Positions 4,062 to 63,751 of a stretch of 64,000 nucleotides of DNA are shown piece after piece. The translations under genes and the position numbers were made by a program. The notes beneath the pieces were generated by a model. The model made no database searches and was not told the origin of the DNA. It saw only the letters and a program-made list of their open reading frames with translations. The stretch is taken from NCBI RefSeq assembly GCF_964355755.1, contig NC_092674.1, positions 11,909,001-11,973,000 of the forward strand. The letters are read 5' to 3'. Numbering within the stretch: position 1 is the stretch's first letter; each line of letters begins with the position of its first letter. Origin of the DNA: Antedon mediterranea (taxonomy: Eukaryota > Echinodermata > Crinoidea > Comatulida > Antedonidae).

Positions 4062-6310
4062 TTATAAATCAGTGTCTTCAATAGATTCAAGTTTCTTTTT
4101 GTTTGAAACAAATCGTTTTGACTTTGATTTTGTTGGGGAAAGGAGCGATTGCAGAACATCTATGGAAGTTCGTCGAGGGGTTAATATGGGAATAGACTCA
4201 TTTTTTGTCACCAGTAAAAGTGTTACATTTCCATCCGGGTCAGTAGTTTGCAAACGATGAGAACTTATTGGTGAACAAGCATTGGGTAAGTTATCCATAA
4301 GTTTGTCAATATTCCGCACTTTAAACTGCAAAAATGCAGAGTTCAATGGTCGTGGATTAAACCTTTCCGGTGTTTTCTTTACAGCAAATTGAATATCACA
4401 TCCACTTTTTGTATGAACCGTGAAAATGCAGAAATTGTTGTCGCGTTTAAACGTAGGATCTTTATTAAGAATTAACGTATAAAAGTTTATCATTTCCAGG
4501 AACGTATTTGCGGAGGAATATATCATGAATCTGACAAATCTTCTTCCGCAATGCACTTGACGCACAGCCCATAACGGCGTGTCAAGCGCAGAACTATAAA
4601 AGTGCTGCTCATTTGGGTGACACGTCGTGAATTGATGCAACATATCGGATGTATGGTGATGCTGCCATGGAGGTTTTGAAAGGTAGTCTTGCAATTCTGA
4701 TATCAGTTCCGAATCCAGTTTCTCGTCTAGAAGTAGTAAAACACAGAGTGGGGCTACCGCATCTGGTTTTTCAATCGAGTTAAAACATTCGCTCGCTCTA
4801 CTTCGTTCAGCCGCAATGTTAAATAGTTGAAACGAAGGATCACACCATTTTACCAGTGGTGTAGTCAAATTCCGAAAATCATTACTGCCCTCAGGATCCG
4901 TTATAAAATGCATAGTCATTGCAAAAGGATCGGATTTCTGATCGTTTGGAAAATAGTCATCTAAAATTAAAATAAATATTGGCTTAATTAGTTGAGCATT
5001 ATAATACATTTCAGCATTAGGCTAGGGTCTAAATATAGGCTTATATAATAACAGATATCGCCTTTTAAATCGGTAAAATATAAGATTTGACTCGGGAATG
5101 ATATTTCCTCGAACAAAATATCATTCCCTCGGGGATGTCAAATCTTGTATTTAACCTCTAAGCAGGCAATATCTGTATAATATTGCATTTTTATAATATA
5201 ATATCCCCAGGAAACATACTGTACGTGTACCGTGACTATAGTGGGCTCTATTTTTGTTTTTTATTGTTGCTCTGTAGTTATTACTATCTTTAATGAGTTT
5301 TTTATTAATGCTATATTTCAGAAATAAGGTTCTCGACGTAACTAAAGTTGTTCGTAATGCTTGCGCACGCGCAGATCAATATGTTTACAAAGTGGGCGGA
5401 GCTTGCGCGTTTCATGTTGGGAAAATAGCGTTAAAGTTAACGTTTACGTTACGATGTGGGCGCGGTGAGCAGTTTCGGCACAATAGATGGGACGTTTACT
5501 GAAGCCCTTCTATTTATTAGTCTGTAGATCCAGCTAGGCACTGATAGCATTGTCATTTTTCCAGTAGGCCTAATAGGAAACATACTGTACGTGGACCCGA
5601 TTCTGCTACTGTCAATAGGTATGTATCTGTATAACTATATAAAGTGTATGCTGTCGGCAAAAATGCTGTACTTTTAACATAAATATATTATAGAGGGCGC
5701 TATATAGAGTAAATACACACAGCAGAATCGGCTGGTACGTGTCCCGTGACTATAGTGGGGCTCTTTTGTTGTTGTTGTTGCTCTGTAATTATTACTATCT
5801 TTAATAATGAGGGTGGCAGTATCCAGTCCCAGTATTGGAACTGATAATTAAGTGACTCGATAAAACATAACAAAACAAACATTATAAAATAATCATAACA
5901 AGTTAAGAAAATAAAATATCTACATTAAAAGTTAAAATCGTTAATAATTGTTGAAAAATAAGTATCTAGCATTATTGAAATCCTATTACGCACACACCAC
6001 CCAGACATAGTTGTGGAAACGTGTACAAGAGTTAAGATATAGATAACAAATCTTATCCATTCCATTCCTTTTTAATACATTCTTCATATAATTACACATT
6101 ATTGTGTAACACAATGATATACCACCCATTATAATATAGAATCATTACTTGAATCAAAATATAAAATATAATGTATATTCTGTGCTATCTTCAATGGTTA
6201 ACATCAAGTTAATTGAACTATAGCAACTATAATAGCTGCAATTAATGCAAGTAGAAGTCAATTAAATGAAATATATACTTACTACTGCTGTTGATCCATG
6301 CAGCTGTCAT
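4062..6310 (-). CDS. FAM124 family protein (FAM124A/B-like), two coding exons
   Basis: Function in animals is unknown; FAM124A and FAM124B are poorly studied vertebrate proteins with one conserved domain. The main exon is 4062-4960. Its reading frame runs on to 5009 only by reading through an acceptor (TTTAATTTTAG), so I end the exon there. It carries hallmark family blocks: SDPFAMTMHF near the start, KPPWQHHHT, TPLWAVRQVHCG, NNFCIFTV, LQFKVRNI and SPISSHRLQTTDPDGN. I infer the first coding exon at 6283-6310. It is a 28-nt piece starting with ATG and ending at a strong GTAAGTATA donor, and its phase fits, giving MTAAWINSSN before DYFPNDQ. The model is 308 residues, much shorter than the roughly 450-550 of the human proteins because the variable C-terminus is brief. 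Family call is firm; the first exon is inference. Confidence 0.85.
5043..5185. mobile_element. Long hairpin, MITE-like, in FAM124 intron
   Basis: Two arms of about 65 bp are imperfect reverse complements. The inner arms, AAGATTTGACTCGGGAATGA and TCATTCCCTCGGGGATGTCA, face each other around a short loop. The outer arms contain CAGATATCGCC and GGCAATATCTG. It lies just upstream of the large FAM124 exon, inside the inferred intron. Confidence 0.65.
5209..5807. repeat. Nested duplicated blocks in FAM124 intron
   Basis: The segment 5221-5297 (TACGTGTACCGTGACTATAG through TTATTACTATCTTTAAT) is repeated at 5731-5805. Between them lies the long copy (5298-5580) of the repeat also seen at 3772-3900. 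AGGAAACATACTGTACGTG occurs at both 5209 and 5576. A tandem duplication followed by divergence fits. Confidence 0.6.
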
Positions 6311-12301: not shown

Positions 12302-12799
12302 TTAGAAGTCTGATAGATCTGAGTCTGAATCCCATGCACTTGTTTCAATTCCTCTGTTTTCCATTGCAGGAAATTCAACCTCAACATCATACTGGAAGTC
12401 GGGATCACCCGGCTTTTTCCTGTTCTTCTCGTAGCTATCATTCATTGCAGTTTTCTTTTTTTTAAGATCGTCATCGTCCAACTTGTTCAAGTCCTCTTCG
12501 GGGTCAATCTCATATTGTTTCTTTGCTGTGGCAAGACTCTCCTCCAGACTTGAACCATGTAGAACTGCCTGTATTATTCTCAGTAATTTCTCAATTTGAA
12601 ATTCACTGACATGTTGTAGGTATTGCTTATGTCGAGGGTTGTTCTTAAGTTCTGTTGTAAAGCAAGTGATATTTGTATTCTTGTTAAAGTTTCTAAGCGG
12701 CATTATTCTTTCTCTTAGTTTTTTTGAAGAATTTTCATATTTCAATATAAGCATCGGGGGTTCAACTCTGACCCCACATTTTTTCGGTGTCACTTCCAT
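12302..12799 (-). CDS. CEP19: CEP19 centrosomal protein, complete single-exon CDS
   Basis: CEP19 is a small protein of the centriole and ciliary base. In vertebrates it is recruited by CEP350/FOP, binds the small GTPase RABL2 and promotes loading of intraflagellar transport complexes. The ORF gives 165 residues, close to the human length. It shows the family blocks in order: KKCGVRVEPPMLILKYE near the N-terminus, RERIMPLRNF, ELKNNPRHKQYL, IEKLLR, DPEEDLNKLDDDDL, EKNRKKPGDPDFQYDVEVEF, and an acidic serine-rich tail ending SDSDLSDF. The ATG at 12799 places the start directly before KKCG as in orthologues. The frame is intact with no intron in the coding region. Any 5' non-coding exon would lie above 12799. 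Identification is firm from sequence. Confidence 0.96.
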   Translation of the reverse strand: MEVTPKKCGVRVEPPMLILKYENSSKKLRERIMPLRNFNKNTNITCFTTELKNNPRHKQYLQHVSEFQIEKLLRIIQAVLHGSSLEESLATAKKQYEIDPEEDLNKLDDDDLKKKKTAMNDSYEKNRKKPGDPDFQYDVEVEFPAMENRGIETSAWDSDSDLSDF

Positions 12800-12876
12800 A
12801 TGGAATTAGGTCATCATAAATTTACAAAAAGGCTAAAATAAAAAAAAGTTCGAAGTTGTATTATTTTGGCATAGTA

Positions 12877-18102: not shown

Positions 18103-21100
18103 ATGGGTAGGTAGAGCTATTATGTTGCATTGCAATTTCAATTAATACTTGCAATGATTATCTTTTTAGTGATATCGACTAATCAGGTTAATCAGTACTT
18201 TTAGCAAATATAAGCTTTACAAATTTAAGGAATTTTTGTGCAGCATGATTGAAAATAAGCCAACATGTTTATAGGCCTATATGATCTGATTGTGAATGTT
18301 TTGCTTGTTTTACCATTTTTATATCGAGAAAAACGAGTTTCCATTTACACATTTTGATATATCGAACAAATAAAGATTTGATTTTATTAAACTGATTTAT
18401 TTCTAACGTTTACATTGATGTTTCTAATTATACATTTCGGAAAGGCGCAAAACATTTTACAATCTTTTAATTAGTTAAAGTCAGCTTTAACGGATTTCTT
18501 CTAGAGTTTTTCTAATTTTTGTCCTTGATTGTTTATTTTTATCATTTTTATTTGTTATTGTGATTACAATTTACACCATTGTTATTTTGGTTAAAATATT
18601 TTCTTTGTTATTAAATTGTACATACAAAAGTATATATAGTTAGGTTTAACGTTTATATAATAGGCCCATTTTTTACATAATTTAAGTTTAATGTAAGTAT
18701 ATTTAGCTAAAGCTTATTTTTAGAAATTCGGAAAGGTCTATCCGAAAATGATTTTCATTGATCGTAAGACATTTTAATGATTAAAATGTAACAAAATATG
18801 TTGAAAACAACACGTTTACAAAAACAGGATTGTGTTGTGTTGCTTTTAACTATAAGACATAGTTTATTTTAAAATCCTTTTTTTCAATCAGGACGGACAT
18901 TACCTCACCCAGTATCATGTCGAGTGTGCGGTGATAAGAGTTTTGGTAAACATTATGGTGTTTATTGCTGTGATGGTTGTAGTTGCTTCTTTAAAAGAAG
19001 TATCAGAAGGAAAATGCAATATACCTGTATCGGAAAAGGAAACTGCGTCGTGGATAAAGCAAGACGCAATTGGTGTCCGCATTGTCGACTTCGTAAATGC
19101 TTTTACGTCAAAATGAATAAAGCAGGTACGTAATAAATTGACCATAGATTAACAAATTAGGCCTATCTAAACTGGATATCGTGTATGTAAGATCAGCTCT
19201 CTTTTACTTTGTCTATTTGTTAAGCTTAAAATTACTTAATATTATGATTTAGGCCTTCTATTATTTTCCAAATGTTAACCTCATTAAAATACTAAATAAT
19301 ATGTAATAGTTATTTTATTCATTTCTAATTGGGGCCACTTATAATTGTACTTATTTAAGTTATTTATATACAAGATTTTTCAAAAAAATAGTTTTTCTTG
19401 CCACCGATACTAATTCATTTTCCAAAGCTTCTTCAGTTTATTTCATTTTATATCCTACTTATGAGTTTACTGAATTACATATTTTTGCCGGTGGATGCAG
19501 TAAAAGAAGTCGTTCTTCATGACAAAACAATATCAATTCTTCAGGACTTTCCTACATTATTCACACGCGAAAATGGTGTAGGCTACACAGTACAATTCAC
19601 GCGTACTATAAACATACCAGGCATCACGTCTACTTACTTTATTCCTCAATTCCGTTAGTGTTTTTATGAAGAAAAGATGAAAATCTCATCCTTCTGATTT
19701 CATTTGTTTCCTTTTTTATTTTTGCAAATACAATCAATTTATTTAACATCACTATTCTTTGTAAAAAACTATATATGTTGATGTTTTCTTCATTAGCTGT
19801 GCAAGAAGAAAGAGGACCACGCAAGAAAAAGGCCACAGTACAGAGCGTAAAGCCAACCAACAGTACCCAAGTTACACCGATTCAAAATAGAACACATCCT
19901 CATACGAAATATTCCGCAGATAGATCTAGAAATGAAGTTAGGTCGTCTGCGTTTGTGCCGTTCCAACCTTGGAAGCGGGCAGAACCGTGCAATCATAGTA
20001 TGGTTTCAAGGTCAATAGTAGGTCTACCAACAATGCTGCCCAATCATTCTAAAAATGTTCAATTCCTACAAGGTGGAATATGTGGAACTTACATGTCTTC
20101 AGTGATGACCCACCCTGACGCAACTCCATTTCCATCTGCAATGGCGTCGTTACTTCATGAGCAATATTATGAACGGCCAGGTAAGGTTTCCACCATTTGG
20201 AATAAATTTAATCGTTACAGTATGATAGAAACACTAGAAACAAGATAAATAATTAGTATTATCACTTATTCATCTACATTGTTTGATTTAATATATTTGA
20301 TAAATTATAAAATTATTTACATTTATCCCGTAATTGGCGAGTTACTCGCTGTTGGTTGCGTATAAAATGAAAATTAGTTACAACAAAAATTACTGGAAAA
20401 CAATATACAAAGTGAAATGTCAATGATTGTCGTCAAAAACAAACTTAATCACGGTTAATACGGAACGTATTCTGTTACAGGAAATTTAACAGAATACATG
20501 GAATGACAATTTCGATTAAAATTATAATGATTAAAGTTATCCCAAATATAAATAATATAAAATAAACAACAGTAGATTCGCACATTGTAGAACGTAAAGT
20601 AGAATTTACAACAATTCTAGTTAAATTTTCTGTGAATGTGTGTAGGGCGTATATGCTAAAACTAGTGCAATTTGAGGATTAAATAGTTACCGACCCGTTA
20701 CACTGTTATTGCATCCATCGTTAAAATCATATTGAAACTTTGTAATTAAAATTGGTCGTTTTTCTTTCCTGAGCTTTTAAAATAATGTAGTTTATTATTG
20801 AATCCATTGATTGTTTATACAACTAATAGAAACAATAAAAAAAAAATACAAAACCTTAATATTAATTTAGGTTATGGTGAGATACAGATGCACCCAACAT
20901 ACCCGGATGTTCATGCAATGCTAGTCAGCAGTACAGAAACCGATCAAGAGGCTCTTCGAGAAACTGCTTCGAAAATCCTTCAAATGTTGGTTGACTCGAC
21001 GTCTTCAATTTATGTGTTTCAAATGTTTGATAGAGATGATAGAATTATTCTTCTTGAAGATTCATGGCCTGAACAGTTTCTTTTTCACATTGCCCTGTGG

Positions 21101-23343
21101 CCGATTATAGACATGCACGCAGCAGTAACAAAGCTTAGTGTGAATGGAAGTTTGGTAAGTCAAGACTCATTAGCTGATAATTAGTAGGCCTATGTATGGT
21201 ATTTGAAACTTACGAAATGAAAGCTTGCAATATCCATACATTGCTTACTAAAATAAGTAGGTGGAATTCATTTTTTGGCTCAATATTACTGTTATTACTA
21301 TGTATGGGCCTATCTAAATATAAATATTAATCATTTTTAATGTGTATTGATTATTTGAGTTTCCTATCCATAACCGTAAGAAAGGAAAGCAAAACAAAAC
21401 CTTATAAATCATTAACTATTTTATATTATTTGTTTACGTTACGCGCACTCTCGATTTTAAACTAAACTCGTATTAAAAGTATTTAAAATACAACTATACT
21501 TGTATCTAACTGAATATACTCAGTTAGTATCTAGAGTGCCAGCTGCATAATCTGGTAATACAACTATACTTGTATCTAACTGAATATACTCAGTTAGTAT
21601 CTAGAGTGCCAGCTGCATAATCTGGTAATACAACTATACTTGTATCTAACTGACTATACTCAGTTAGTATCTAGAGTGCCAGCTGCATAATCTGGTAATA
21701 CAACTATACTTGTATCTAACTGACTATACTCAGTTAGTATCTAGAGTGCCAGCTGCATAATCTGGTAATACAACTATACTTGTATCTAACTGACTATACT
21801 CAGTTAGTATCTAGAGTGCCAGCTGCATAATCTGGTGCCGAATTGAGACCTTAACCGCCGCACAACATAGGCCTATTTATTTGTAATTGTAGTTTTTTAT
21901 AACCACTAGCCATCAGCGCAAGCTCGGTGGTCTAGAGGTATGAACGCCAGGCTAAGTGATCTGAAGGTCGTGGGTTCGAGTCCCACCCGAGAACTAATTG
22001 CGAATTTTTTCGCAAGTATTCTCAAATGTACTTAGTATAAAGTACAAATTACGTCAGAGTAGTACAAAACATCTAATTAATAACATGTTTATTATTATTC
22101 CAATATTGACACACTTAGTGCATATTACAAAGTGTTCTACAACAAACCTAATTTTGTGGATAATTATATTAAAATTTCTATCCCATAATTCCCTATACTG
22201 TTAAGAATATAACAGAACATACGATGCATTAAGAAATACTAATTGTTTTACTTTTAGAAAATACCCTCAAAGTTCATTGACGATGTGCGTGACATTATTT
22301 CAAGAATAAGATCTCTAAACCTGAGTGCGCCAGAGTTTGCTTTTTTAAAGACCATTCTGCTCCTGAAGCCGGGTAGGTCAACTTAATAAAACAACTTAGG
22401 CATACGCTAATCAAAAGTCGACTTTTTGAGTAATAATAATACCATGTATACATAATTTTAAAATATTGTTGATGTTAAAAATGTGTGTAGTTAATTGGAC
22501 GCTTTCTTGTAAAATGTAATTATTATTTTTTTTTATTTCTGTGCACTGTTCTGGGTTGACCAACTAGCATAGGTGTTTAGCGGTCTTTCCTTGCCTTTTA
22601 TATTTCGTTTTGTCATTTTATTTGTGTATTGTATATGGCAGAAATTGAATTTAGGGCAATTAGAAACTAACAAAGTACGTCACCTACATGAATTCAAATC
22701 CAGAGAGAGAAAATGAAATTCTAGTCTACACTCAGTAAAATTGTGTTTGCAAATACCAATTGGCCACTAGAGGCTTTCCACACCCGAGGATGGCTTACTG
22801 CCGTATGATCGGCTTCAGGAAAGATTTCGGTAGGACAACATTCTCGGAGTTTGCTAACAAAAGAAACTTAAGTAGGCCTATAAGACGTCAACCAATCAGA
22901 TTTCGCTATGTCAGCTTCAACGTTGTGGAATTATCTAATCCGACAGTGTGCTAATTTTTAGCTAGCCAGTCACATTTTCCAATAAGTTTTTTTCATTTAT
23001 AAAACTATCCTCCTTTTTAAAATTTATAGTACAGCGACTTGACAGCCTTGTAATTCCCTAGGCTCAACTGAACTATTCATGTGCTTTGTTTTTAGAGTCG
23101 CATGGAAAATTGCGAGAAACCAAAAAGGCAGAAATGCTTCGAGACCAAGCCCAAGTGTTTCTTGCTCAATTTGAACAGGACTTGAACCCACAGTCACCCG
23201 CAAGGTTTGGCAAGCTTCTTCTGGGATTACCGTGTCTAAAACAAGTCGATAAACAGACGCTAGAAGAAGTATTCTTTGGAAGAACTATTGAACGATCTGA
23301 ATTACAGAGATTGATGGGTCCTAGGGATCTTCATAGACCATAA
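18103..23343 (+). CDS. Nuclear receptor, NR2E (tailless/PNR) type, six coding exons
   Basis: Predicted ligand-regulated or orphan transcription factor. Exons: 18103-18106, 18892-19125, 19797-20180, 20871-21154, 22258-22372, 23096-23343. All junctions are GT-AG and keep phase, giving 422 residues. The first exon supplies only ATG plus one G and is inferred; it yields [18 protein letters not shown]. Two C4 zinc fingers follow at residues 11-76, then the NR2E-like extension [13 protein letters not shown], a ~110-residue hinge, and a ligand-binding domain. The latter has the signature [38 protein letters not shown], and [12 protein letters not shown] near the end. Odd points: the first-finger recognition helix reads [10 protein letters not shown], where family members have glycine at the sixth position. 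The C-terminus ([14 protein letters not shown]) lacks a normal AF-2 motif. NR2E1 versus NR2E3 or another branch cannot be settled by eye. Confidence 0.9.
21489..21836. repeat. Tandem repeat, five copies of a 70-bp unit
   Basis: The unit starts TACAACTATACTTGTATC and ends CTGCATAATCTGG. CAACTATACT recurs exactly every 70 bases at 21491, 21561, 21631, 21701 and 21771. Copies 1-2 have CTGAATATACT and copies 3-5 CTGACTATACT. Each unit holds an inverted repeat CTAACTGA/TCAGTTAG. It lies in the fourth intron of the nuclear receptor gene. Confidence 0.95.
21922..21994 (+). mobile_element. tRNA-derived sequence (SINE head or tRNA pseudogene)
   Basis: The 73-base segment has a good B box (GGTTCGAGTCC) inside a perfect T-arm (GTGGG/CCCAC) and an A-box-like TGGTCTAGAGG. 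The acceptor stem pairs only five bases (CTCGG/CCGAG). The anticodon arm pairs four bases around an 8-base loop, so no proper anticodon can be assigned. It is therefore a tRNA relic, in the nuclear receptor intron. Confidence 0.6.
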
Positions 23344-37000: not shown

Positions 37001-40000
37001 TAACGTATTGTATCAAAGTAGTATTGAACTGAATGTTGCTAGCTTTATTTCCTTTTTTTAAATGCTTGATTTTTTTTAACATGAGTTTGTTATGTTCTTA
37101 TTTTTTGCTTTTTTTAAAAACTTGGTTTTACATAATGGCAATCACCACTAATAAATTGCTTCATTAATATTTTAAACAGCATGAATAACAATAATTATAT
37201 TAAAAATATCTATAATGTTATCAAATAACTTCTAGTTTAAAAATCCAAATGATGATTCACAAAACAAGACTTTCTGGCTATGTTTAAAACTGTAATAAAA
37301 GATAAAATAAATACATATACATTGCACTTGAATATAACTGGCTGTTTATATAAACACATTGGCATTTTAATGCACTTGCATAAAAGCCACACAGTACAAA
37401 AGCTACTGTACGTTGCCTTTGTAAATGTAACGTTAGATTTTTTTTCTCAAAAATTGTTTGTGCACTTAAACATAAATAAACTATTTTGCTCAGTTTTTGT
37501 GCATTTTCATTTTTTAGGAGTTACGATTCGAGATATGACATTGGTTTACTTGCTGCTTCTTATTGGATTGTATATAACACCGATATTTATCAAATCTCCT
37601 TGTATTATGGATTACAGTGACACACCTGATAAACCACTTATATTTGCACATAAAGGAGCTGAAATGGTAAGTAAGCTAGAATAGTAATTTACTTGATTAT
37701 ATTTTGTTTATATTAATAAATTCACAAGCAAACAGAGATAAAAACAGGCTGAAATAGAACAAAACAAATGGTACAATATCTACAAACTGATATATTTACA
37801 TTCAAGATCTACAGTAAATCTAGCCTACACATTTTATGGCAATTAAACTCAATTTCTAGAGGTTTCTTTACTAATGCAGTCCAGCTGTGGATCACATGAC
37901 CAGACTAGGCTTTAAAGCTAAAACTAACTCACCGTAACTCACCGTATACCACTCTAAATGAGTGGTGCAAGAGGCTGGTGGGCCGGTCGTGGCCCTCTAT
38001 TAAAACTGCAAACTTTAATGTTTTAAAACTTAATTACTGTAAAAAATAACATTGTATACTTTTAATTCTTAATATATTTACATATTTTAATAAATTGTTC
38101 ATGATATTAGAATTCTTTGATTACATTGTTTGTACTTGTACAAACAATAAAGTTAATAATTGATTTAATACTATTTAAAAAATAAAATGTTGCCTTTTTA
38201 TGCCATTTCTATATTTTGTATGACGCTTTCCATTATTAGTACTATACATTCATATTTTTCTTCACATTTTTCACTTTTAAACTTTTTAGCTCGCACCGGA
38301 AAACACAGATATGGCATTTCGTATAGCATTGGATGACTATAAGGTGCATGGTATTGAGTCTGATGTTAGAATAAGGTAGTGATGCAATTTAATTTATATG
38401 TTCTGTACAGTGTATTAAAAATAATAGTTCATTCTTATATAGCGCATATAAGCAAGTTCTCAATGCGCTGAACATTATTACCCCAGACATTGTTTTAATA
38501 TATAGCCTGCTTCATCCATCTGTTAGATCAGCGTTCTGCAAACCTTTTATTTTTCGGCCTAAAATCCTGTCCTCAGGACCAAGCCGCGACCCAACTGCCC
38601 AGATGAAAACTGAGATCATGAGGTAATAAAAAAGAGTCCGCCACAACTCAGCCCCACCATGGTTGGTGAGGTAAGAATATTTTTGGAATATGGACCGTGG
38701 GTTCTAGAAAATTGATCCAATAAAAAAAAATCAGCGCAGGGTTTCCCTTTTTAACATACACGATACATATCACTGTGTCATGTTTCAGTTCATACATCGC
38801 GATCAAAATTTGGCCGCACATATCAATTGCGTTAGGTATGCTTTCAAACATTTTCAGCAAGATCAAACCATAATATTATATATAATAAAGGTTCTTACAA
38901 TCTGAAACTTGTATTGTTGTATTGGTAATGTAATTATTTTTGAAAAAAATGTTTGGCGGACACATGCCAACCATGGAGCTATATAGCTCCATGGTAATAC
39001 AGTGTCAAATTCAAGTTGAAATTGACACAATTTTCATACTGTAGTTTTTTTATCAAATTTTCAGTCGTGACGGCGTGCCATATGTAATGCATGACAACAA
39101 TTTACGACGTACAACAAATGTGAAGGATATTTTTCCAAAACGCTACATGGAGTCTGCAGATAACTTTACTATTGACGAACTAAAGTCCCTCAATGCTGGT
39201 TCCTGGTTTATGACGGTATGTGCAAAAAACAGTTATAGCAATTGTTTATGGGTTTAAGGCTTCCAAAAAAGCTTCCATCATAAGAATGCTTTTTGGAAAG
39301 ACTAGTGTAATATCAAAATTGGATTATTACCAATTGTTAAAAGTGAAAAAAAAAGGAAGTACTGTATGTCATTAAATGTTATATGTCCGTTGTAATATAG
39401 AACTTCAATTTGTCTAAATTATTGTTTCCTCATTATTGTTCAACATTTACAAGTGTGCAAATAGCACATGTAGTTGGAAGGGACTTGTACCTAATGTACA
39501 CATTTTATGGCAAGTAAAATTGTTGATTTAAATTTTACAATAATTTGTAAACATTTATTGGGTCATTTTGCTCATATGAGTGGAAAGAGCGGTATGTTCC
39601 ATGCCTCATGTTGTAGAGAAATTATTCAAGAGAAACTACCAAGGCCTATTAGTGCTCTGATCATAGGCTTCAGTCAGCCATATGGGACAAGCCTTTTGCA
39701 AAATAATGTGTACTCTTTGTAAATGTTTGAAAATGTTGAAAATTGTGAATGGTTCCTTGATATATTGAAATAATTATAATTTTTTACAATATAATACTAT
39801 ACAGTATTATGTTATAATAATCAAATAATTGTTTAATTTTTAATTTCTAAATATTTTATTTTATTTTTTAAATATTTTACCCTCATAGAGAGACCCTTTT
39901 TTAACAGCCGGGATGTTGTCGTCAGAACAGAAAGATCATTACAGATCACAGAAAATACCCACAATGCAAGAGATGATTAGAATGGTTTTGAAACGCAACA

Positions 40001-46909: not shown

Positions 46910-48263
46910 TTATCGTGGTTTAACTATTTTAAGGAATGCTCCTGGAACGTTCTTTGATGGGTCTTCTGATTGAATTAGTGTCGCATCGCCATTCTCTATC
47001 GCAAGATAAGTATCTATGCAAAAAAGAAATAATAATCCTGATGTAAAATCAACAATTAGTTTTCATTAATGTAAATTTGAGATTGCATTTCATCAGCTAG
47101 TGACAAAAGGAGAAGATTTTAGTAGCCATGAAGGCTAATTTATACAGACGAGATGTATCAGCAGGCGGAAAACAAACAATATAGAATCTATGTCTTCATA
47201 TGACCATTTACACAAAATGCAGAGTGGACCACCGGTGTCTGTTTAAATTGGCCTGAATAGTTATAACACCCATTTGAATCATTAATTTGTATCATGAGCT
47301 GTGCAATATCTTCTCCCATTTCAATGCATTTTGTGTGCTATTGCATGGTCAGCTTTTTGCAAACTGTAATGGCTATGCCTAACATATCACTACTAGATGA
47401 GTATTAATATAATAAGTAATATTTTATGTATAATTTTCTTACACTATTTTTAATACAGTTATGGTAAAAACAGCTTCTTCGGGAGAACATTTAAATTAAT
47501 TTGACATACCTGGTTTATTGACAGCTTGAAACAGCCAACTGTTTGTGTTACTCTCAGAAATTAAGTAAAAGAACCGATTATCATCAGGCTTCAACTCGAT
47601 CACCTGATTATTTAAAAGGTCACTACCATTCTTTAAAAAAAAAAAATTCAAAATCATGTTCGACATTAAACTCCACACATATTAACATTTTGGTTTTTAC
47701 TGTTCCGCATTAAATGCGTACTACCATTTTATAACATGTTTTGGAGTGAATACTACAGATCACGTGGTCTCCAGGAGAAACGTAGCTCGCATTATTCAGA
47801 ATTTAGATGCAAATAATCATCACATATATCATGAATTGCGATGGCACATACATACTACTACTACTACAACCATGGCAATTTCAGTCAGATAAAGATGAAG
47901 AGGTGAAGCCGAGTGAAAATAGAACCTTATCTCATCAAATTATTTGTACCATTGCACTAATACTTGCACAATATTTGTATATTTTAGTGAAATATAGAAT
48001 TATTATGAATGAGAACAGCAAACAAAATACATTTAAACAAAATAAAATAGGATGTTTATAAACTTTAAAACAAAAGATATCAGACAATCAATCTAACAAT
48101 ATATACTGTAAAGTGTAAACCATATTACCTTTAGCTCTATATTCTGACCACTGGAACTGGATGTGATGCACGATTCAGAATCCTTGTGTACTACTGCACA
48201 TACCTGCTTTCTCTCATCATTTAAAAACTTATTGACAACAAAAAGTCCTGAAAAGAATAACAT
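46910..48263 (-). CDS. Interleukin-1-family-like beta-trefoil protein, C-terminal three exons
   Basis: Predicted secreted or cytosolic beta-trefoil signalling protein; the family is a proposal. Exons: 48129-48247, 47510-47630, 46910-47013. They have GT-AG ends and matching phases and code 112 residues. The frame also stays open up to an ATG at 48263 (MLFFSG), but that would read through the acceptor TTCTTTTCAG, so one or more upstream exons are likely missing. The chain alternates short beta-strand-like runs: LFVVNK, KQVCAVVHK, NIELK, NQVIELKP, NRFFYLISES, WLFQAV, TYLAIEN, ATLIQ, GAFLKIV. The segment RFFYLISES...LFQAVNKPDTYLAI aligns with the IL-1 core where family members have RFxFxxSxS...FESAxxPxWFLxT. 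It fits the IL-1 signature, as I recall it, at all but two fixed positions. FGF-type or AbfB-type trefoils are the alternatives. Confidence 0.55.
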
Positions 48264-49359: not shown

Positions 49360-50205
49360 CCAACAAATTACCCCAATAAACCACACCACCAATAATGAAC
49401 CACAGCAAACCCCAATGAACCACTGTACAACGAATTACCCCAATGAACCACAGGGTATCCCACCAATAATGAACCACAGCAAACCCCAATGAATCAGTGT
49501 CCGACGAATAACCCAATGAACCACAGCGTATCCCACCAATAATGAACCACAGCAAACCAAAATGAATCAGTGTCCAACGAATTACCCCAATCAACCACCA
49601 CAGTGAACCAAAATGAACCACAGCGTATCCCACCAATAATGAATCACAGCGTATCCCACCAATAATGAACCACAGCAAACCCCAATGAATCAGTATCCAA
49701 CGAATTACCCCAATGATCTACAGCGTATCCTACCAATAATGAACCACAGCAAACCCCAATGAATCAGTGTCCGACGAATTACCCCAATGAACCACAGTGA
49801 ACCCCAATGAAGCACAGCAAACCCCAATGAATCAGTGTCCGACGAATTACCCCAATCAACCACAGCGTACCCAAATGAACCATGACGTACCCCACCAATA
49901 ATGAACCACAGCAAACCCCAATGAATCAGTGTCCGACGAATTACCCCAATGAACCACAGTGAACCCCAATGAAGCACAGTGTATCCCACCAATAATGAAC
50001 CAACAGCAAACCTCAATGAACCAGTGTCCGACGAATTAGCCCAATCTAATCAACTGCATCGGATCCCAGACTTATCTCAAAAAGCATGGGATGGTGATCA
50101 TTAAACGTGACTTAGTCTCTTAGGCCTATGTCTTGAAATGGTCACTGGTTCATTCGCATCGGTTCATTAGGATTCGCTGTGGTTCGTTGGGGTAATTCGT
50201 TGGAC
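49360..50205. repeat. Higher-order minisatellite (AATGAACCACAG-type)
   Basis: Built from recurring modules: CCACCAATAATGAACCACAG, CAAACCCCAATGAATCAGTG, TCCGACGAATTACCCC and AATGAACCACAGTGAACC. They combine in varying order into units of about 65-130 bp. It leaves long open frames on the minus strand (49316-49678 and 49705-50016) that are products of the repeat. The last part (50150-50205) carries the unit inverted (GTTCGTTGGGGTAATTCGTT). Confidence 0.9.
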
Positions 50206-51039
50206 CACAACTTATATAAGCTTCTGACAAATTGAATGTTCACAAACCATCTTGTCCTTCAATACTCTTGGTTGCACATAACTTGTTTGCATTGTTCACT
50301 TTTAAATACTCAGCTTTTGTTCCTGGTCTGTAAATCATTAGATGTTGTGAATCCACTTTTAATAGGGACATGTTTCCTAACTGCAAATATAAAAAAAAAA
50401 CAAAGTTTAGGATCAGGTGCCGTTTTCGGCCACCTCGACTTGTATGGACTATACCATTATTATGATAGGGGTGTGGTGTATTATGTTTTATGTAGAGAAG
50501 GGTGTCTATTGAATGGGAAGACAATACAATTGTTCTGTTATGTAACCTACAATACAGAACATCAAAAACTAGCAAGCATGTAATTTTTATAAGGCATGTT
50601 ATTATTAGGTACTGTGTTACGGAATGCCAAGATTTTGTAACAATATTAACTATATAAGTAGGTAACTTACTTACTATATTTATATAAAAACTAAACTAAA
50701 CACTACAGTATAATCAAAATTAAAACATATTAAATACTATGTTAATATGCCTATCTGGATTTAAACACAATAAATTTTAGTACATATCACAATCGGAAAT
50801 AAAAAATCTTAAATACTACAGTACAATCGATATTAAAATATCCTAAATACTACATTACAATCGGTTAAATTACCAAAACTCTATAATGTTGTGAAATATG
50901 TAAAAGAATGTTGGCAAATCGGCCCAATCCTATCGGTAGATAAATCATATTTTTTATTTGCAAGGGATAAATCCAAACAACATGGATTTGAACCTAAGAA
51001 CCTGGAATCGGTAGACGAGTATAATTGAAGATTCATTGA

Positions 51040-58232: not shown

Positions 58233-61200
58233 TCATCGTTCTTGGACAAAGACAGTTTCACGTGGTACAAGACCAGCCTCTTCTAATGTTTTATCTGCAT
58301 CCATGTAAGATAGTTGACGCCTAGGATAATTGGTAACAAGCTCATACCTTTCACTGGAAAATCCATCCTTTGCCACACGTGTAATTAAATCCTAAAATCA
58401 AGTTATATTCAATTATTTAGTTACATTATATTGGCAATATGTTACAACTTAAAAAACTCAAAAAAGTCAAATTTCAACTATTTTCCTATATTAGTGAGTT
58501 CATTTTGTTTATCAGCTGTTAATGTGCCTCTCAAAGTACTTTCTTTGTACGACCACATAAGCGAATTCATCGCAGTCTAATAAGCGCCTCACCAACTTAA
58601 GCCGATAGAGATGTCTGTATACTAGAGGCGTCCGCATACAAAAAATATCCGTATATGAGAGGTGTCCACATGAGAGGTGCCTGATATGAGAGGAGTCATC
58701 ATATGGGAGGTGTCCGCATACGTGACGTGTCCGCATTCGTGAGGTGTCCACATAGGAGATGAGTCATCATATGGGAGGTGTCCACATACGTGATGTTTCC
58801 GCATATGTGAGGTGTTTGCATGTGAGGTGTTTGCATGAGAGGTGTCCGCATGAGAGGTGACTGCATATGAGAAGTGTGTGCATATGAGAGGTGTCTGCAT
58901 ATGACGTGTAGCATATGAGGACGGTGTTCGCATACAAGGTGTTTGCATATGAGGTATCCCCATACATGTAGTGTCCGCATATGAGAGGTTCCCAGATTTC
59001 AAAACCGGGAAAGGAGAAATATAAAAATAGTTTTAAATAATAGAAAAATTTACAATATTATATTAGGGATTTAAGAAAATTAATTTACCAATAGCGTTGA
59101 TCTTCCAGGCATGTTCATTTGTTTTCTTTCACCATCTGGTAACCTCAGCATTATCTTAGCTTCAGAATCTACAAATAAAATAGATATTAAAATACTTCAG
59201 TACTAAAACTATTCAATTCTGAGTAGGAAACAAATCATGCAAGAAAAAGTTTAAGTTATTGAATATAAGAAAATACCATTTTCATTTGTATCTCTATTAA
59301 GCATTCAATCTAATAATGTGTTATTCTTGTACTGTACAAATGAAGATAGTTAATTTGGATATTTCAGTGACATGCACCAGGCATGTGTATGTATTGTTTA
59401 ATATAATTATTTAAACAATAAAACTATTGAATTCCGAGTAGGTCGATTATTTCAGCAAATGATGCAAAATGAAAGAATATAAATTATTACCATTTTCATT
59501 GGTTTGATTTTGTTTATTATCTTCATTTACATTATTTGTAATATGTGTAGGCTTGTCTATCACACTTGTAGTTGCAGAGTTTGTATCAGTATCATTTTTA
59601 CTGTCCTTATCTGGTATTCGAGTTTCAGAAACATTATTATTTGGCAAATATTCGTTATTGTCTGTCTGTTTATTTCGCTTAGTTATAATTTCTTTTGATT
59701 CATTCTCTATTACTATAGTGTCTTCGACAACACAATTGTCATCTGCGTCATTTCTATCTATTGTATTGTCTTTATGATTATTCAAATCTTCAGTGACATC
59801 ATTAGTTCTTTGATTCTCAATTTCAACGTCACTACACGAGTCGTTATCGCTTTCTGACTGGCAAGAATCGCTTTCATATTCCGGTTCCGAGTCGCTATCA
59901 ACGTATATAGTTCTTTTGTTCTTACAGCTTGTTTCTGACATTGATGCCGCAATTGCTGCCCTCAATTGGCTTTCTTCATCTGCATCTATTATACTCTCCT
60001 AAAATAACATTTGGTTATCTTTATTAAAAAATAGCTTGAAAATAATATGTTGTTAATGCTGATTTATAAAATGACAATAATAAAAAAAAAAGTTGCCAAT
60101 CAAAGATTTTGATGTTACGGGGAAGGGGAACGGAATGCTCGGGTGAATCATTTTAATTCTTCTCACTACAAATTGTCTACATTCACCTATTATAAAACTT
60201 GTTATTGGTGTTTTTAATACAATTTGTATATTTTTAATATATCATTTTAATGTCACATAAAATTGGATCGAAAAAAAAAACCTTGATAAATTGTAATTTA
60301 AAGCAAAAACAATGGCCATATTAAGGGGTTTTAGTTGAATTTAACCATTTATTTTGTATTTTTTGTAGGTGAAAGAGATTTTTTTGGATGTTTTTTAAGG
60401 AAGTGATTAACTTTATTAAAACTACAAAATTGCCTATTCAATGTCCAACATTTTTTTCTCAGAATTGTTCATGTTTTTAAGGTCAATACGTCGTTGTATG
60501 GATTATGTATCAAAATGTATGATCTGGTGGGTTTATTATAGGGAACTTGTATTCTTTGTCTTCAAGTTTAATAATTTGTTTAGCCACCATGTGAAACAAA
60601 TGATTTTGATGAAAGTGAACAAACTTTTTACTATTAGTGATACTTCACATGTTTAATTATAAACATCATTTTTACCTTTCTGGCTTTCTTCTTTGGTGGG
60701 CTGAAGCCATCTTTATCAAAGCATGGGTGATCCTTTAAAAAATTAGTCACTAATAAGAAAACAATACAAATAGTATTAGAAAGGCCTGAAATTGTTATTG
60801 ATTATTTTACATAATCTTAGCTTAGTACAATCAACGACAATTGCAACAATAGTTATTTCGTTGATTGGATATAAGTCTAGCTTTCTTCTAAGAAACTGAC
60901 AATGTACCTTTTTGTATTACAATTGTCGTATTCGAGTGGACCGTTGAGTAGTTTTTCCGTTGAGTACTTTTTAAAGGAGTATTTTGAGCGTTGAGATTAT
61001 TCTTAACGAAAAAGCTTTTGTTGTCAACGTTTTCTATTCGAATGACTTTCTGTTGAGCACAAATTTACAATTCGAATACAAAAAGTACTCAACGAATCTT
61101 TATGTTGACAACGAAAGTTCCCAATCGAATACGACAATTGATGGTACCTTGATTTTACACTTCTGGCTGGAGGCTAAATGTAAGTACATATTTTTATTGC

Positions 61201-63751
61201 ATAGATAGATTCAATCGAAAAACACGGTCTTGCTAAAAACTACTAGACTAAGAACTTCAATAACAAAATAAGGAGTGCTCTCATGCATGCCATATCAACT
61301 AAAAAATGTAATGCTCTAAGTATTAAACACAAAAAACAACGAAAACTAAATTTGATTTTTTTTTTCATATTTCAAACTTGTAAAACACCCACAGAAAAAA
61401 AAACATGTGTGATCAAACTTGGGCAGGCTTGTTTCCTGTTATTATATTACTTAATTCACTGAATACCTACGCGTCTGTCCATCTTTATTCAGAGCCTAAT
61501 GCTCGTACGTGCTTTAAACTTGGTGGGTGCAGCTTTGTACAACAAATAACAAGTTTGCGTTCATTAGTAAAATCTCAAAATTCTTAAATTGTTTTGATCG
61601 AGCTGAAACTTGGGTAAAGTAATCCTGAAGATAGAGCTCATAATATCAAGAAGGGTGCCAACCAAGATCAAGATCAGTTCACTTAGGTTAACCCTGGTCT
61701 CCCCAATTTAAGTTTTTTTTGTTATGTATATACTCAAATAGACCAAATAAATAATGAAAGGTCAAGGTAAAATTTCAAAATTGCTCCGATCAAGCTTTAA
61801 CTTGGGTAAAGTAATCCTGAGGAAATAGGGTGAGTATGAATGTGACAAATTATGTTTTAAACTACATAAACTACAATACTTGCTAGTAGTTTAAATGCAC
61901 AAGAATATGTAGTGTGTATATACCTAAGTCACAGAATACAAGACTATCAAGCTTATCCCATGACACTAATAGTTCACCCGTTCTTGGATCCAATATGCTA
62001 ATGTATGGGAAAGTAACCACTTTGTAAAACTGGCAATATTTTTGGCCTTCCTCACTATCATGATAAACCTAAAAATGTAAATAGATAATTTAAAATTATT
62101 CAATGATCAATTCTTTGCTATTCAATAGTCAACATTTATTTATTTTTTAACAAATTAATTCATTATTCGGTAGATGATAACATGAACAAAATAAGAGGTC
62201 TCCAGTTCTTAGATTTATATATATATACTGTATGTAAATCAATTGTGTTGCATAGCACTGTGTAAATTATATATAAATCATACTGTCAAATTATAGAAAC
62301 TGTGCTCATATTTGGAAGATGATCTCATAATCGCGTTGAGCATAGCTCATTGGCAAAAGTTCAATATTTTTTTAGTTGTATGAAAAATGTCTCTGGCGGG
62401 AGCACTGTTTCTATAATTTGACAGTATGATTTATATGTATATACATATATGTATATGTACAATATCTCTGTATATCTATGTATGTGAAAATTATATTACT
62501 CCGTGTAACGCAATTACCACAATATGTAACATATGATTTGTATAATATTTACCTCAGTAAAGGCACTTGTTTGTTTGTTTGTTTGTTTTATCTTTATACT
62601 GGGTGACCTCTTCAGTCAAAGACTGATCTCCCAGAGGGCCCAGTTGGTGATCAGTGGCTGTGATGTACTAATACACCGGGGTAACCCCCTACTCGTCTCG
62701 AAAGATGTACTAGGTTCTTTAAAGTGCACATGAGCAAGTTGTGTACACTGGACCTACGGTTTATAGTCCTTAGTCCTTAGACCCGTTCTACCACCAGAAC
62801 CATGGAGTGAGCCTCGAACCCCTGCCGATGTTATGGCTACGTGATTACGGTTCCACTGTCTTAACCACTCGGCCACTCACTAACGATACTACTAACGGAT
62901 GTTCGTTATGCATAGCCATGTGGATTTCACTAATTCTGTTAGCATGGAGGTTTCCTCCATACCGTTAGCAAATTGATTATTCCATGGAGGAAAATTCCAC
63001 CATGATTATTCATAAGCAAGTAAATGAATATTCATGATAGTACTGCAGAAACAGGAGATACGCTCCATTGATTAAAAAAAATAATGCAACTTGTTTAAAC
63101 AATAAAGATCTAATTATATTAACTATACCATGGATATGACAATCAGCAAGAACACACAAATTGAAGTTCCCTTGTTCTCTGAACACCTGTGTACTGCATA
63201 CACTGTGTCGCTGAAATTTGTTTTGTTGTTTTCTGACAATCTTAATTATTTTCATTGTGGAAAATATACAAATAATTTACAGTGTGCAATTGTTATGTTT
63301 ATTCAGAAAATGGATCAAATGATTGAACACATTAACTCATTAACAACTTGTAATATACTGACTATCGATAGCCGTGGTGTACATGTTACACAGAGTATAA
63401 TCATTTTGACACGTCCCCTTTAATTCAAATTTTCGTTTTGTTTAATTCGATATTTTTGATGGATTTGGAAATTTTCATTTAATTATAATAATATAATGTA
63501 TAATTCAACTAATTTAAAAGTGTCAATAAAAAAAAAATAAAATTTTATCAGTTATCAGTTGCATTACAATGTATGAACCAATAAAAGACGTAGCTAAAAC
63601 TAACCTGCCAAAATACAAATGACTGGTTAATGAAACGTTTGACTGCGGGATCACTCCAAACATCACGGTTCAGTTTCTGACAACTAAATTCTTGTACATC
63701 CTGAACATTAACCAATAACCAACGTCCTTGTTGCTGGCCAACTTCCCGAGC
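58233..63751 (-). CDS. UBXN7: UBXN7 (UBX domain protein 7), C-terminal part; gene continues past the window
   Basis: UBXN7 is an adaptor that links p97/VCP to ubiquitinated substrates and cullin-RING ligases. Exons in transcript order: 63605-63751, 61924-62068, 60676-60749, 59491-59998, 59089-59168, 58233-58391. All are GT-AG and in phase, giving 370 residues plus stop. The UAS domain is nearly complete: REVGQQQGRWLLVNVQDVQE, LNRDVWSDPAVKRF, VYHDSEEGQKY, FPYISILDPRTGELL, VTNFLKDHPCF. A short basic patch (PPKKKARK) and a ubiquitin-interacting motif (DEESQLRAAIAASMSE) follow, then a long acidic Asp/Asn/Glu-rich linker. The UBX domain starts KIMLRLPDGERKQ and ends AGLVPRETVFVQER. The UBA domain and the first exons lie to the right of 64000. 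Odd: the p97-binding loop reads YPRR instead of FPRR. Identification is firm. Confidence 0.95.
58622..58990. repeat. Minisatellite in the last UBXN7 intron
   Basis: Roughly 25 degenerate copies of a 14-17-base unit such as GTGTCCGCATATGAGAG. CATATGAG, GAGAGGTGT and GTCCGCAT recur throughout. It leaves overlapping open frames on the minus strand (up to 126 codons) reading as repeated Thr-Ser-His-Met-Arg. These are artefacts of the repeat, not a gene. Confidence 0.9.
59203..59500. repeat. Partial duplication of a UBXN7 exon edge
   Basis: The segments 59203-59291 and 59420-59502 share AAAACTATT.AATT.CGAGTAGG, AATATAA and TACCATTTTCATT. The second includes the real donor of exon 59491-59998 (minus: AATGAAAATG then GTAATA). 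The first carries a copied donor (AATGAAAATG then GTATTT) with AG before ATACAAAT. Confidence 0.6.
60241..60370. repeat. Third copy of the 10985/14459 repeat
   Basis: Shares AAATTGGATCGAA, TGTAATTTAAAGCA and TTTAACCATTTATTTTGT with those loci. It lies in a UBXN7 intron. Confidence 0.5.
60750..61923. other. UBXN7 intron
   Basis: Contains a partial tandem duplication: ATTTCAAAATTG..GATC and AGCTT.AACTTGGGTAAAGTAATCCTGA occur near 61573-61630 and again near 61770-61822. CGTTGAGTA and TACTCAACG words near 60940 and 61085 are inverted. No exon. Confidence 0.5.
62218..62470. mobile_element. MITE-like inverted repeat in UBXN7 intron
   Basis: ATAAATCATACTGTCAAATT then ATAGAAACTGTGCTC (62273-62307) recurs in reverse complement at 62399-62435. 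The AT-rich TATATATA tracts outside also mirror. The spacer is about 90 bp and non-coding. Confidence 0.65.
62566..62885 (-). mobile_element. Full-length tRNA-derived SINE
   Basis: Read on the minus strand: Ser/Leu-like A box GTGGCCGAGTGGTTAAGAC, a B box GGGTTCGAGGC about 50 bases later, a body of about 230 bases, and a tail of (AAAC)n (plus strand TTTG repeats at 62568-62590). It is the best preserved SINE in the window. Located in the UBXN7 intron, same strand as the gene. Confidence 0.85.
62886..63604. other. UBXN7 intron remainder
   Basis: Several GCATGGAGGTTTCCTCCAT-like inverted words at 62930-63000 recall the palindrome at 51131. No exon recognised. Confidence 0.4.

Follow-up and report, generated by a model that had tools for sequence, protein, structure and literature searches.

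Does the interleukin-1 (IL-1) family of cytokines have a member outside the vertebrates? The question is raised by a locus in a 64,000-nucleotide stretch of DNA from the crinoid Antedon mediterranea (hereafter the window, whose first letter is position 1), in which a first-pass annotation had proposed an IL-1-family-like gene. An origin of the IL-1 ligands in early vertebrates is proposed in publications of 2018, 2022 and 2025 (PMC5861070, PMC9020223, PMC12108812), the first and last of which date it to some 420 million years ago. The one of 2022, a review, states that no invertebrate IL-1 ligand gene is known, despite IL-1-like activities in echinoderms and tunicates (PMC9020223). Homologues of the IL-1 receptor (IL-1R) are known from invertebrates (PMC5861070, PMC9020223, PMC12108812). 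No published invertebrate IL-1 gene was found in the literature searched, the scope of which left aside bioRxiv preprints and many subscription papers. Reading from the DNA, we consider that the locus is probably a four-exon ambulacrarian gene for a leaderless, IL-1-like beta-trefoil cytokine of 155 amino acids related to the IL-1/IL-33 superfamily—a strong candidate for, and a probable case of, a cytokine gene of IL-1 type outside the vertebrates. Formal membership of PF00340 or PF15095 is not claimed for it.

The core of the gene model consists of three minus-strand exons, described by the first-pass annotation as phase-matched, and they proved to be open, bordered by AG and GT and compatible in phase. 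Exon A (48247-48129, 119 nt; phase 1 in, phase 0 out) encodes LFVVNKFLNDERKQVCAVVHKDSESCITSSSSGQNIELK and is expected to span strands beta4 to beta7; exon B (47630-47510, 121 nt; phase 0 in, phase 1 out) encodes NGSDLLNNQVIELKPDDNRFFYLISESNTNSWLFQAVNKP, expected to run from the beta7-beta8 loop to beta9; and exon C (47013-46910, 104 nt with its TAA; phase 1 in) encodes (D)TYLAIENGDATLIQSEDPSKNVPGAFLKIVKPR, expected to form beta10 to beta12. The stretches RFFYLISES and LFQAVNKPDTYLAI are present as first reported, and the end of the locus at 46910 stands, while its start moves from 48263 to 48247, where exon A begins. A missing 5' exon had also been postulated, and a probable candidate was located by its frame, acceptor and phase-1 donor: exon 1 (50380-50248, minus strand), which reads MSLLKVDSQHLMIYRPGTKAEYLKVNNANKLCATKSIEGQD, probably completes the protein and would supply beta1 to beta3. 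This exon lies within an open frame of 151 codons, and its first Met (at 50371) follows just after a strong acceptor. Its donor (ATG/GTTTGT) is the best phase-1 donor of that frame, yet weak (score -1.2), and joins exon A in frame. The joined product of 155 amino acids, MSLLKVDSQHLMIYRPGTKAEYLKVNNANKLCATKSIEGQDG-LFVVNKFLNDERKQVCAVVHKDSESCITSSSSGQNIELK-NGSDLLNNQVIELKPDDNRFFYLISESNTNSWLFQAVNKPD-TYLAIENGDATLIQSEDPSKNVPGAFLKIVKPR, has no obvious signal peptide, as judged by eye, and neither a propeptide nor an N-terminal nuclear domain was seen in it. Any further 5' exon would be expected between 50381 and 58236, because the upstream gene on the same strand ends at the latter position; this neighbour (58236-62068, minus strand) has Pfam matches to UIM and UBX and was named UBXN7 by eye. 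A tandem repeat array (49386-50046) with units of about 68-123 bases lies in the intron that separates exons 1 and A.

Elsewhere in the window, Pfam matches mark FAM124 (4065-5021), CEP19 (12305-12805), a nuclear receptor (18873-21181) and GDPD (39045-39254). In the human genome UBXN7 and CEP19 adjoin on 3q29, a region with IL1RAP and FGF12 as well. The genome had been judged likely to be that of an invertebrate, and rightly so: for the N-terminal exon of its tektin-2, the tektin in the sea-urchin sperm structure PDB 8snb gives 236 bits and mammalian tektin-2 at most 146 bits, pointing to Ambulacraria and probably to an echinoderm. For a second tektin exon the nearest chain was mammalian tektin-3, with no sea-urchin chain closer, and this exon does not separate the lineages. 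Searches for GH6, meant as a test for tunicates, and for COX1 yielded no usable match.

The IL-1 reading rests above all on the comparison of exons A-C with single proteins, which gave Z scores of 9.5 for mouse IL-33, 6.3 for IL-1RA and 4.3 for IL-36alpha; as a yardstick, IL-33 scores at most 5.7 against other accepted IL-1 members. The IL-1 group as a whole reached p 0.0005, and the best score was 78, against 48 for the best of 177 decoys drawn from real ORFs of the same genome—statistics that are conditional on the choice of the candidate, since visual inspection of a long sequence had singled it out. Of the comparison proteins, eight were checked against Pfam, with one failing sequence dropped; mouse IL-1alpha, IL-36alpha, IL-36RN and FGF9 entered without such a check. 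The similarity is specific to certain superfamily members (IL-33, IL-1RA and IL-36alpha), with no signal from exons A-C against IL-1beta, IL-18, IL-1alpha or IL-36RN. Exons B and C carry it. The contribution of exon A is small, although its alignment with IL-33 and IL-1RA is in register, and exon 1, which has no sequence similarity of its own, contributes nothing.

Library searches pointed in the same direction at lower strength. IL-33 was the top match among 177,635 PDB sequences (E 0.018), and the top cytokine model in Pfam was IL33_bt (PF15095) with E 0.019 and 15.3 bits, against a curated cut-off of 27; both matches fall short of customary thresholds. No curated Pfam cut-off was reached, Pfam gave no report for PF00340 (IL-1), and NCBIfam returned no match. 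The proposal of an IL-1-family gene is upheld in part, with the best match to IL-33, the IL-1-specific pairwise scores, and the loop and receptors described below in its favour, and the missed Pfam cut-off against it. When the animal's own genome (354 Mb, 18 contigs) was searched for paralogues with the protein and with IL33_bt, either the gene itself or nothing was returned, and no relatives were found in the viral and prokaryote contigs searched. The sole match to the IL1 Pfam model in the genome, on contig C11 (23 bits, below the cut-off), falls in an Ig-domain membrane protein and was set aside as apparently spurious; this protein is encoded by a single exon (C11:21922561-21925779) and carries a tail with repeated tyrosine-containing units.

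As regards the IL-1 signature of PROSITE, which includes a P-x(2) element, the first-pass annotation had noted a fit save for Ala in place of Ser and Ile in place of Thr. This description was borne out: seven of the nine fixed positions match, and the strict pattern fails at these two. By our own count, mouse IL-33—an accepted member—matches at five of the nine and fails at four. A fit of seven in nine occurred nowhere else in the window (31,649 positions tested in six frames) and at one of 96,552 positions in other loci of the genome. The copy of the signature given in PMC7144542 is without the P-x(2) element. Structure prediction had little to add: AlphaFold, run on the single sequence, returned a model too poor to test the fold (pLDDT 41.6, pTM 0.39), for which Foldseek placed IL-33 chains second, fourth and fifth (E 0.5-1.1) and VIA-align listed polo-box domains at the top with IL-1 nearly absent, neither list being informative.

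A divergent beta-trefoil of the FGF clan, stripped of its FGF motifs and no relative of IL-1, is the alternative against which the architecture of the gene has to be read, and we regard it as unlikely. The candidate has a phase-1 intron ahead of the expected beta4, a phase-0 intron after beta7 and one additional intron, again in phase 1, that separates beta9 from beta10. The IL-1beta gene has intron phases II, 0, I, I and 0, with the trefoil in its last exons (PMC4880838). The phases 1, then 0, of the candidate match the last two of these. Beyond phase, the intron positions presumably also coincide with those of human IL1B, going by its exon lengths. However, FGF exons of the same genome show phases 1, then 0, at equivalent places, so the gene frame fits an FGF equally well; we accordingly dropped it as an argument for IL-1 over FGF, and it supports the IL-1/FGF clan without choosing within it. 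FGF2, moreover, gives a weak match to the IL1 Pfam model, and the two families overlap at such a level. Sequence nevertheless argues against an FGF: five FGFs scored at the level of shuffled sequences against exons A-C (Z about 0; group p 0.49), and hhalign gave p 0.26 for FGF and 0.049 for IL-1, with profiles of three to five sequences that are too weak to decide. Pfam gave no report for PF00167 (FGF) at E<=10. The stretch from the phase-0 intron to the aromatic pair of beta8 comprises 19 residues and ends in D-x-RFF, compared with 14-17 residues in IL-1beta and IL-1RA and about 6 in FGF; this long beta7-beta8 loop, together with the RF motif, favours IL-1 rather than FGF.

Two further explanations were weighed. 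The gene could be real but of a different beta-rich or beta-trefoil type, be it lectin-like, fascin-like or of an undescribed family, with its resemblance to IL-33 and IL-1RA a matter of convergence or chance. DUF4988 nominally outscores IL33_bt in Pfam (E 0.0098 vs 0.019), CBM-like and RicinB_lectin_2 models also score weakly, chance can yield an E of about 0.02, and the IL-1 fold is putative; nevertheless, two or three IL-1 members were matched in one and the same register with the decoys far below, and no lectin or other trefoil reached E 10 in the PDB search, so that we give this explanation little credence. That the locus is non-functional, either a fortuitous succession of open stretches or a gene in decay, seems to us very improbable. 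The donors of exons 1 and A are both weak, and the codon signal is modest: all four exons exceed the mean codon usage of the window's random open stretches, of which a fraction of 0.044 score at or above exon 1, 0.18 exon A, 0.038 exon B and 0.022 exon C, exon A alone being not significant. Against this, the exons are open, bordered by AG and GT and compatible in phase, the joined frame has just one stop, at its end, and the similarity runs across both the A/B and the B/C junctions. A functional gene of IL-1 type remains our preferred reading.

IL-1R-like receptors have been described from invertebrates (PMC12108812), with no ligands known for them. The genome contains 38 TIR matches, and most of those inspected belong to short Toll-like receptors. 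On the gene's own contig, at 2.81 and 2.85 Mb (C5:2813500-2858000), two loci have exons that encode Ig domains, a membrane-spanning segment and a TIR domain. For the TIR domain of the first locus, whose exons were joined by eye, the nearest matches are IL-1RAcP (1.9e-16) and SIGIRR, with Toll-like receptors behind them; at its end stands an LKW...FWK...MP stretch resembling that in IL-1R proteins. This pair is a candidate for the receptors of the ligand-like gene. At 24.54 and 24.56 Mb of another contig (C4:24535500-24562000) lies a second gene pair, in which several Ig domains are combined with a transmembrane segment and a TIR domain. Short Toll-like receptor genes, some of them nearly identical copies, form a cluster on a third (C3:5548000-5660000); in these genes an intron separates the leucine-rich part from the TIR exon.

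On the reading that we prefer, the protein would most likely be a cytosolic product that lacks a propeptide, like IL-36 or intracellular IL-1RA, and might be released through cell damage or by an unconventional route. It would then bind the Ig ectodomains of IL-1R-like receptors encoded by the same genome and bring their TIR domains together, leading to MyD88 and NF-kB signalling; an antagonist role is equally possible. The candidate could account for the IL-1-like activities that have been reported in echinoderms, and its IL-33- and IL-1RA-like sequence features could be ancestral. We lean slightly towards genuine homology between this ambulacrarian gene and the vertebrate IL-1 superfamily, in which case ligand and receptor would both predate the split between chordates and the echinoderm/hemichordate lineage. 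If so, this would be the first ligand gene outside the vertebrates, within the literature searched, and a candidate ligand for the orphan IL-1R-like receptors of invertebrates; the origin of the ligands would move back to early deuterostomes. The common ancestry of IL-33 and IL-18 with IL-1beta, denied in 2018 (PMC5861070), would be open to debate again.

Set beside known families, the candidate shares with FGF (PF00167) the presumed fold clan and two intron phases, but has neither the short beta7-beta8 loop, nor the core motifs, nor any sequence signal of that family. Compared with the PF00340 proteins IL-1RA, IL-36 and IL-1beta, it has one intron more, in phase 1 and separating beta9 from beta10, and a signature without the S and the T; from IL-1beta it further differs in showing no similarity signal and no visible propeptide, whereas with IL-36 it shares the lack of a signal peptide. 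At the end of the loop before beta8, the EEDKRF of IL-1RA is close to its D-x-RFF. Closeness to IL-33 is odd, because IL-33 itself has been described from mammals only (PMC5861070), and IL-33 has an N-terminal nuclear domain, unlike the candidate as far as seen. The cytokine domain of IL-33 (PF15095; mouse, PDB 5vi4) is nevertheless the closest sequence, with NKPDTYLAIEN in the candidate facing NLPGTYIGVKD in IL-33 and the two chains staying in register to the C terminus.
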